DNA of 64,000 bases from a virus. Both the position numbers and the translations under genes were made by a program. The stretch spans positions 1 to 64,000 of IMG/VR virus record IMGVR_UViG_3300020810_001156; one strand, given 5' to 3'. The notes under the pieces were generated by a model. It was not told the origin of the DNA. It worked only from the letters and a program-made list of their open reading frames with translations, and made no database searches. Shown piece by piece: positions 13,173 to 16,297 of the stretch; positions within the stretch are counted from its first letter, which is position 1; each line of letters begins with the position of its first letter.

Positions 13173-13949
13173 ATGACTTTTTGGGAATGGAAAAATGAGG
13201 TATCTCAAGTTAAGAGTAAATTGGATATTCGAAAGGAGAGAGTAGAAGAATTCTTTAAAAATGAAGAATGGAGAAACCACCAGAAATTATCCGAATGGGC
13301 TATAAAGAATGATATAAAGTATCTTAGAAAGTACGATGCATTTGAGTATGAGTATGAATACAAATATATCATGTACTATGAATACCAAGTCCGTACAGCG
13401 TTACCACCAATAGAACCAAAAGAGAATCATTTTTGGTGTAGGTATTGTAGAGATGAAAAACCACAATCTGAAGTTAGGGGTACTTCAATATGTACTCCAT
13501 GTGCTAAACAATATCGAAGAGATAATTACGCTGAAAAAGAACGAAATTCAATGAGAGAAAGATATCATTCAGACCCAATACATAGAATTGGTTCTGTTAT
13601 AAAAGCTCATATCAATCATATCTTAAATAATAAATTTGATAAGATAAGAGATGAAACATGGGAAGAAACTGTTGGATTGAGTAAGCAGGCATTTTTAGAT
13701 TATATTTTAGAACAATGTGAACCTCATTGGAATATGGATAATTACGGAACGGAATGGGTCATTCAACATATCATTCCAAGAGATTGGGCTGAAGTAGAAT
13801 CTGATGCATATCTATTGAACTATTATAAGAACTTAATGCCGTGGGGTTTTTCTGAGAACGCAGCTCTTAAAAATAGAATCGAACCTTCTCAATTAAATGA
13901 ATGGCATTACACTAATGAGAGAATTCAACAATTGATTCAAAACCAATAG
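13173..13949 (+). CDS. HNH / endonuclease VII-like zinc nuclease
   Basis: 258 residues. An N-terminal about 85-residue charged helical region is followed by a zinc-binding unit with Cys89-x2-Cys92 and Cys107-x2-Cys110, then a C-terminal segment (VIQHIIPRDWAEV ... NLMPWGFSENAALKN) that follows the H-I-I-P ... N ... N-x-x-K pattern of phage HNH nucleases. Probably a DNA endonuclease, either homing-like or for DNA processing. It forms a single-gene transcription unit between P6 and a terminator, which suits a free-standing homing-type gene. Confidence 0.7.
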   Translation: MTFWEWKNEVSQVKSKLDIRKERVEEFFKNEEWRNHQKLSEWAIKNDIKYLRKYDAFEYEYEYKYIMYYEYQVRTALPPIEPKENHFWCRYCRDEKPQSEVRGTSICTPCAKQYRRDNYAEKERNSMRERYHSDPIHRIGSVIKAHINHILNNKFDKIRDETWEETVGLSKQAFLDYILEQCEPHWNMDNYGTEWVIQHIIPRDWAEVESDAYLLNYYKNLMPWGFSENAALKNRIEPSQLNEWHYTNERIQQLIQNQ

Positions 13950-13957
13950 TAAAGAAT

Positions 13958-13980
13958 CCACCCCAAAAAGGTGGGTTTTC
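13958..13980 (+). terminator. intrinsic terminator
   Basis: CCACC (13958-13962) pairs with GGTGG (13970-13974) over a 7-nt loop, then GTTTTCTTTT. Confidence 0.65.
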
Positions 13981-13983
13981 TTT

Positions 13984-14045
13984 TGCGCCAAATCCAAATG
14001 AACTCGAAGTTGGAAAACCAAGATAAAAATAATATAGCTAAGAAT
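13984..14045 (+). repeat. diverged direct repeat, copy A
   Basis: A roughly 60-bp segment starting GCGCCAAATC and ending AATATAGCTAAGAAT that aligns with copy B at 16530-16585. Both copies sit right after a terminator and before an AT-rich stretch and a small ORF. Confidence 0.55.
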
Positions 14046-14141
14046 AGTAGTAATCAATATAGTATAGGTATAGAAGATATATAAGATAAAGAATAAGAAG
14101 ATATAATAGTTATATTAAATAACCCCAAATACCACCCAGCT

Positions 14142-14297
14142 ATGATAACTCAGAAAGAACTCATCCATATGTACTATAAGATATGTGATATAGAAGAGGA
14201 ATTGTATGTTAACCCCTTCCCCAACGATAAGATACTCCTCCTGACCGAAGATTTAAAAAAGACTATCATCAATAGAGTAGATGAAGCTCCTAAATAA
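14142..14297 (+). CDS. small hypothetical protein, 51 aa
   Basis: MITQKELIHMYYKICDIEEE... is acidic and helical. It is isolated in the control region with no clear promoter of the P type, so expression is less certain. Confidence 0.45.
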   Translation: MITQKELIHMYYKICDIEEELYVNPFPNDKILLLTEDLKKTIINRVDEAPK

Positions 14298-15785: not shown

Positions 15786-15817
15786 TTTGGATATATCATT
15801 TTTATTTCGTATATTAG
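15786..15817 (+). promoter_or_regulatory. Bacteroidota-type promoter P9
   Basis: TTTG 15786-15789, 20-nt spacer, TATATTAG 15810-15817, then a TAGTGTAATTGG variant of the conserved initial sequence. It transcribes a leader of about 190 nt with the tRNA-like fold before 16010. Confidence 0.75.
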
Positions 15818-15871
15818 TAGTGTAATTGGTTGAGGTGATTGAGATGTACTCTAGCCCTAACTAACAAATTT

Positions 15872-15943
15872 GCGGGAGAAGCGTTAAGAGAAACGTGCCG
15901 GGCTTCCAGCTCGGAGAAGGTGGGGCGGTTCCATCCTCCCGCT
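15872..15943 (+). tRNA. tRNA-Gly(UCC)-like cloverleaf, degenerate
   Basis: Folds as an exact 72-nt cloverleaf. The acceptor GCGGGAG/CTCCCGC has 7 perfect pairs. The D stem is GCGT/ACGT, the anticodon stem CCGGG/CTCGG with loop CTTCCAG (anticodon TCC at 15905-15907), a 4-nt variable loop AGAA, and T stem GGTGG/CCATC with a 7-nt loop. The D loop lacks GG and the T loop GGCGGTT lacks TTC, and CAA follows instead of CCA. It may be a decayed or regulatory tRNA-like element rather than a working tRNA. It lies inside the P9 leader. Confidence 0.5.
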
Positions 15944-15947
15944 CAAC

Positions 15948-15999
15948 TGATGATGAGATTAAGGATAACTCGGCTCCGAATGGGGAGGTAGCATCATCA
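15948..15999 (+). other. stem-loop after the tRNA-like element
   Basis: TGATGATG (15948-15955) pairs perfectly with CATCATCA (15992-15999). The 36-nt interior contains a CTCC/GGAG hairpin. It ends 10 nt before the ATG at 16010 and so could affect its translation. Confidence 0.5.
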
Positions 16000-16009
16000 A
16001 ACACATATT

Positions 16010-16297
16010 ATGGGAGAACAAGTAGCAAACAATAGAGAAATGCAGGAAGTGATGTATCTCCGCCAAGAAGATGGAAAGTGGTACATCCTATCCGAACCTA
16101 AATCACCTGGCCTGGTGAAGAAGGAATACTTACCTATTGGCAATCGGCTTGTATATCCTAAGAAGTGGGGAAGGAAGAAAGCTGCTGAGGTACTACTATC
16201 CGCACTTATATCAGATTCGGAAAAGGTGTGTGAAAAAGCTAATGAGAGGTTGGAAGTACTAAGAGGATTAACTGCTGAGGTTAGTGAATGGAAGTAA
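16010..16297 (+). CDS. hypothetical protein, 95 aa
   Basis: MGEQVANNREMQEVMYLRQE... has a beta-rich first half (GKWYILSEPKS) and a helical second half. First coding gene of the P9 transcript, after the structured leader. The next start overlaps its stop. Confidence 0.6.
   Translation: MGEQVANNREMQEVMYLRQEDGKWYILSEPKSPGLVKKEYLPIGNRLVYPKKWGRKKAAEVLLSALISDSEKVCEKANERLEVLRGLTAEVSEWK

Follow-up and report, generated by a model that had tools for sequence, protein, structure and literature searches.

A family of divergent tRNA-Gly genes associated with phage mom genes and its putative role as a glycine carrier for Mom

The base that the Mom protein of phages makes from adenine is N6-(carbamoylmethyl)adenine ('glycinamide'), and to our knowledge no tRNA partner of phage Mu Mom has been reported. 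In the title of Swinton (1983), as cited in PMC4461284, the product formed from adenine is named alpha-N-(purin-6-yl)glycinamide. According to a genomic review, Mom is a GNAT enzyme, and the acyl source that it names, 'such as glycyl coA', is a guess at the donor (PMC7824862); an acyl-CoA donor is suggested there, whereas a tRNA partner is proposed here. Our literature search, largely of open-access papers, found no paper that ties Mom to a tRNA, and an earlier publication is possible. A tRNA-Gly that works outside protein synthesis is known from Staphylococcus aureus; this non-proteinogenic tRNA-Gly is devoid of GG18-19, contains elements for weak EF-Tu binding and is thought to feed the Fem transferases (PMC4052509). 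In the staphylococcal tRNAs, which are substrates of FemX/A/B, the GG18-19 nucleotides were replaced, and the same was found in the tRNA-like element studied here. The staphylococcal genes are chromosomal and serve the peptidoglycan of the cell wall, whereas the family described below is viral and co-inherited with a DNA-modifying GNAT; it contains A8, often loses U33 and sometimes loses the whole D-arm. The canonical phage tRNA-Gly (UCC) shares with our element the cloverleaf (7/4/5/5 bp, with an anticodon loop of 7 nucleotides), the anticodon and the Gly identity, but the element is devoid of U8, GG and TTC and was recognised neither by ARAGORN nor by the Rfam tRNA model RF00005.

The element was found in a window of 64,000 nucleotides, which is the whole stretch of DNA analysed and the first 64 kb of a virus record of 252,603 bases. 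It is a putative Mom-associated, non-translational tRNA-Gly (UCC)-like gene at 15872..15943 on the (+) strand, from G1 to U73, assigned by a covariance model (R1) from which it had been held out. The cloverleaf is 72 nucleotides long and contained 7, 4, 5 and 5 pairs in its stems, three of them G-U pairs. The acceptor arm contained GCGGGAG in its 5' strand (15872..15878, +), where G1 and C2 belong to the Gly identity, and CTCCCGC followed by the discriminator U73 in its 3' strand (15936..15943, +). The A8-A9 nucleotides (15879..15880, +) were present where ordinary tRNAs contain U8, and A8 is a signature of the family. The D-arm, GCGT-TAAGAGAA-ACGT (15881..15896, +), contained no GG in its loop and was followed by a single G and by the anticodon arm CCGGG-CTTCCAG-CTCGG (15898..15914, +), in which U33 and the anticodon TCC (15905-15907) with the Gly identity nucleotides C35 and C36 were retained. 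After AGAA, the T-arm GGTGG-GGCGGTT-CCATC (15919..15935, +) was found to contain no TTC (T54-T55-C56), the family norm being GGCGG-N7-CCGACC with a bulged A. The U73 nucleotide is followed by CAA (15944-15946), so CCA is not encoded in the window copy, which is of the more divergent sort, with one base fewer in the T-arm and a position far from mom.

The minimum-energy fold of the element was the same cloverleaf (-32.8 kcal/mol, z -2.4). In a scan of the 64-kb window the element, with all stems perfect, scored 20.1 and the sole other match 17.0; the top cloverleaf score in 20 shuffled 64-kb windows was 18.4, and the Gly identity set was found in none of the 20. The determinants of bacterial GlyRS are G1:C72, C2:G71, C35, C36 and U73, and this set is complete in the element. 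The sequence-only reading of this DNA had described a cloverleaf of four stems with canonical lengths and a TCC anticodon, the absence of GG from the D-loop and of TTC from the T-loop, CAA in place of CCA, and an 8-bp stem-loop ahead of the next ATG. All of these were confirmed, and to them we add the five identity determinants and the AA at positions 8-9, which it had not mentioned.

Upstream of the element, an AT-rich promoter-like motif, TTTTTATTTCGTATATT, was recognised from its sequence at 15801..15817 (+). Its core, TT(T/C)GTATATT, occurs at 10 sites in the window (2921, 9381, 14980, 15806, 17030, 23096, 34635, 39729, 44010, and 46616) and is probably the promoter type of this phage. The predicted 8-bp stem-loop TGATGATG...CATCATCA at 15948..15999 (+) lies between the element and the ATG at 16010, and a second predicted hairpin (15826-15868) flanks the element on the other side. 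The downstream ORF (16010..16297, +), of 95 aa and with no PHROGs match, is probably an unrelated neighbour. The Rfam scan of the window gave no riboswitch or leader family at the gathering threshold and a single chance-level match (E 0.32) on the opposite strand; a known riboswitch or T-box was rejected, as no match to one was present in the window.

Viral contigs were searched for an exact 22-base match, which was present in the same phage and in L010 (55% GC), an unrelated phage. The GenBank phage records searched at the DNA level gave chance matches only. L010 was found to contain a homologous cloverleaf, with an anticodon arm identical to that of the window element and likewise devoid of GG and TTC, at the 3' end of a Mom ORF (PF25680, E=8e-45). 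The covariation alignment and the model R1 were built from 30 full cloverleafs, the window element and L010 being left out. In this alignment 96.8% of the cells were paired and 17 of the 21 pairs varied on both sides, values reached by none of 500 shuffles; the stems were conserved among the relatives, and the invariant columns were G1, C2, C35, C36, G71, C72, and U73 together with two bases of the T-arm. Neither ARAGORN nor RF00005 reported the element as a tRNA in the window. R1 found 15872-15943 with 57.3 bits (E=1.3e-12) as the only match in the window and again as the sole match in the whole genome. Ordinary tRNA-Gly also score with R1 (47.7 bits in L226 and up to 56 bits elsewhere), so the score alone is not decisive and the assignment to the family also rests on A8, on the failure of RF00005 and on the lost features. 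There is good support for placing the element in a family of divergent tRNA-Gly genes that has not been described before and that the Rfam tRNA model mostly misses. As the main reading we discarded a degenerate tRNA relic, since this divergence turns up repeatedly, together with covariation, in phages that are unrelated.

The forward test of the association with mom covered 80 viral Mom loci. With a strict cloverleaf descriptor, 41 loci contained a match beside mom; over both strands of the 421,550 bases scanned, one match lay away from mom. In a looser search, 69 of the 80 loci contained the RNA on the same strand as mom, either immediately downstream of the gene or overlapping its 3' end, and in six further loci the RNA was recognised by eye. 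One locus, that of Microbacterium phage Appa (L085), contained an annotated, canonical-looking tRNA-Gly on the opposite strand, and the RNA was absent from four (L090 and L097-L099). A tRNA-Gly adjoins mom in Salinibacter phage B2_17, where it is annotated, and in Arthrobacter phage Zartrosa, where it is unannotated. The reverse test covered at least 79 loci (L100-L178) collected solely by the DNA pattern of the T-arm, and among the matches listed Mom was present within 1 kb in 67 of 79. The 12 listed loci with no nearby Mom were mostly at contig ends, and two were coincidences in coding sequence with no acceptor stem. The RNA was also found just 3' of mom in 9 of the 13 Mom loci of bacterial genomes. 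No RNA match was found in the Mom phages phiEf11, P12002L, Liebe, Hayley, DoubleBarrel, phiSHEF2, and SP-031, and Mom there would therefore have to use the Gly-tRNA of the host. The RNA family and its tie to Mom are well supported.

The frame of mom reads through the RNA in 64 of the 69 loci. A conserved peptide tail of Mom, instead of an RNA, was rejected: the reading phase through the RNA varies, the stop precedes or falls inside the RNA in some members, the RNA-encoded tail of the Mom ORF is predicted to be disordered (pLDDT <50 from residue 204), and the window copy has no adjacent mom. Because of the overlap with the 3' end of mom in most loci, processing of the RNA could affect the mom mRNA, and Mom is reported to be toxic on artificial expression (PMC12707154). 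Both observations would suit a tRNA-shaped regulator of Mom (an inhibitor, a chaperone or a sensor of glycine charging) or a timer of mom expression, with no donation of glycine. We consider this unlikely, since the retained bases are exactly the GlyRS identity set and CCA, Mom adds a group whose composition resembles glycine, and regulation in cis fails in the window clade, where the RNA lies several kb to >100 kb from mom.

The looser scan descriptor had required CC and U73, and the invariant nucleotides were therefore retested on loci found by the T-arm motif alone. Among the matches listed, these comprised 66 distinct elements; G1:C72 and C2:G71 were conserved in all 66 and U73 in 65, and CCA was encoded in 46. 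The C35-C36 nucleotides were present in 49 of the 54 listed motif-only elements with a clear hairpin, and position 33 was free among those listed (A in 16, T in 15, G in 12 and C in 11). In the full cloverleafs adjacent to mom (n = 29), U8 was substituted by A8 in 28, U33 was present in 14 and TTC in 6. Of the four features U8, interior GG, U33 and TTC, 24 of these 29 kept one or none, and a single cloverleaf kept all four. Some relatives retain GG and TTC. In comparison, the Gly-type tRNAs of related phages were mostly ordinary, with U8 in 8/9, GG in 8/9 and TTC in 9/9. From the sequences, the bases that would direct charging with glycine are invariant in the family, while U8, U33, GG and TTC, which translation needs, drift.

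These results uphold one part of the sequence-only reading, namely that the cloverleaf is kept by selection and is not in random decay; strong compensatory changes were found among the relatives, and the same translation-related losses recur throughout the family. The refuting condition set by that reading, stems that are not conserved in relatives, was checked, and the outcome was the opposite. The roles it had suggested, a decoy, an RNase P target or a leader switch, are not supported: conservation falls on the bases read by GlyRS and on a CCA that is usually encoded, and the family goes with Mom and not with the downstream gene. Although the window element precedes an ORF, its relatives lie either at the 3' terminus of mom or in the company of tRNA genes. 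The earlier interpretation is partly supported; in place of a leader switch or decoy, we read the element as a non-translational tRNA-Gly linked to Mom.

Some of the Mom-linked RNAs, of 65-67 nucleotides, have lost the D-arm (loci L026, L048, L059-L062, L068, L070, L073-L077, L079-L082, L084, L086, L094, and L096). They keep the acceptor, anticodon and T hairpins and an encoded CCA, and are unusually small forms of phage tRNA.

In the window phage, a search with the L010 Mom found two tandem mom genes, at 180,366-181,133 and 181,310-182,116. Both paralogues are intact ORFs and, like phage Mu Mom (PF25680, PDB 8bv8), were assigned to Mom by PF25680 (E 1e-43 and 2e-45). The element lies about 165 kb from these genes and is not adjacent to them. 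The region around the Mom genes of the window clade contained no adjacent RNA; the RNA was found elsewhere in the genome. An R1-class RNA was present in all seven clade records of at least 140 kb that carry Mom (the window phage, G000, and G002, G004, G008, G009, G010, and G011), and most of these RNAs were missed or weakly scored by RF00005. The nine smaller clade records contained no R1-class RNA, as expected because they are fragments, so the clade test rests on seven genomes. In G005, a 288-kb relative with no Mom, all R1 matches also scored as ordinary tRNAs with RF00005. G011 contained the Mom-type tRNA-Gly-like gene as three divergent copies in tandem (81817-82057), about 6.6 kb from mom. 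ARAGORN found a tmRNA gene, with the tag peptide AVELSTMTFEDAMAFVGADLAVAA, in related jumbo phages (L003:6523-6893 and L005:6306-6679).

RF00005 detected no tRNA in the 252.6 kb of the window phage, in which the element is the only tRNA-like gene, and found 23-28 (23, 26 and 28) in the related phages G002, G004 and G005. Such richness in tRNAs among the large related phages, together with the anticodon UCC, the U33 and the full identity set of the window copy and the GG and TTC kept in some relatives, would be in keeping with an ordinary translational tRNA-Gly of loosened structure, which would supply a codon or replace a host tRNA cut by defence nucleases. We regard this as highly improbable: U8, GG and TTC are all gone from the element, RF00005 fails on it, base 33 is free in the family and the D-arm is missing in some members. 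Moreover, no further tRNA is present in the window phage, related Mom phages possess a canonical tRNA-Gly in addition to the divergent one, and this reading would not account for the tie to Mom. The one-base deletion in the T-arm, the aberrant T-loop GGCGGTT, the CAA in place of CCA and the distant mom could instead mark the window copy as a decaying, non-functional relic of the family in this phage. This too is very unlikely, as the four stems are perfect and all Gly identity bases intact, both Mom paralogues are intact, and the element is the sole tRNA-like gene retained in 252.6 kb.

One motif locus with ample flank, L159, contained no Mom and instead contained another phage GNAT, PF22559 ('GNAT-phage-like'), at 13726-14184 on the (-) strand. 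The RNA followed this gene in L159 and in its three close homologues (loci L380-L383 compared, E 5e-21 to 2e-16), and none was found with the more distant PF22559 homologues examined. Mom was absent or weakly similar in these loci, and in L159 a ParB-like ORF was present between the PF22559 gene and the RNA. A ParB-like nuclease-domain gene was also found upstream of mom in several unrelated phages (L010:12540-13181 on the (-) strand, L016:1202-1777, L017:1472-2005, and L018:1490-2011), and in Zartrosa a small extra ORF sits between it and mom. This nuclease-domain gene may be a third component of the Mom module.

The crystallised phage Mu Mom (PDB 8bv8) was the top fold match of the Mom model P0001 (Z 18.3, rmsd 2.8 over 191 residues), and P0003 aligned with it over the conserved core. 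The next fold matches were CoA-dependent GNAT acetyltransferases, and no GNAT that uses aminoacyl-tRNA (Fem, L/F transferase) was present among the matches listed; this outcome neither supports nor excludes the use of tRNA by Mom.

We propose that the element is a tRNA-Gly that has left translation and become a dedicated glycine carrier for phage Mom enzymes, charged by the host GlyRS, and we put the probability of this at roughly 0.7. A private glycine carrier of Mom is the best reading because the RNA has retained the requirements of GlyRS, has shed those of EF-Tu and the ribosome, and is co-inherited with Mom. For phages more widely, we think it likely that Mom depends on glycyl-tRNA, that many phages encode a private, translation-dead tRNA-Gly, sometimes with no D-arm, and that PF22559 shares the RNA partner. 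The RNA would be transcribed and trimmed to the 72-nucleotide cloverleaf, and CCA would be added by a host enzyme here, being encoded in most relatives. Charging by the host glycyl-tRNA synthetase is proposed because every Gly identity element is intact. Lacking U8, U33 or the elbow formed by the D-loop and T-loop, the charged RNA would then be kept off EF-Tu and the ribosome, much like the staphylococcal tRNA-Gly of cell-wall synthesis, and Mom, with its GNAT fold, would move the glycyl group from the tRNA to the N6 of adenine in the phage DNA, which would protect it from restriction. The association with Mom and the divergence of the RNA are shown, and charging and glycine transfer are a strong inference from them. 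In formula, the glycyl residue (C2H3NO) equals the group that Mom attaches. On chemical grounds, transfer with no further step would yield N6-glycyladenine, which is isomeric with the known product; the known N6-CH2-CONH2 form would result if the purine moved to the glycine nitrogen in a Smiles-type rearrangement. Several facts stand against a glycine carrier: the window element lies about 165 kb from mom, has kept U33, encodes no CCA and has lost one nucleotide of the T-arm; many Mom phages have no such RNA, the fold relatives of Mom depend on CoA, and direct transfer gives the isomer of the product.

By itself the RNA is a divergent tRNA; the novelty would lie in tRNA-dependent modification of DNA. 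In the literature found, the donor of the Mom group was only guessed (an acyl-CoA, e.g., glycyl-CoA), and glycyl-tRNA is a specific and quickly testable answer. If the proposal is true, an amino acid would pass from tRNA to DNA in a reaction of a new type, which would link the translation machinery to DNA modification and the evasion of defence by phages, and the family would be a natural set of minimal, translation-orthogonal tRNAs that are seemingly chargeable by an ordinary GlyRS.
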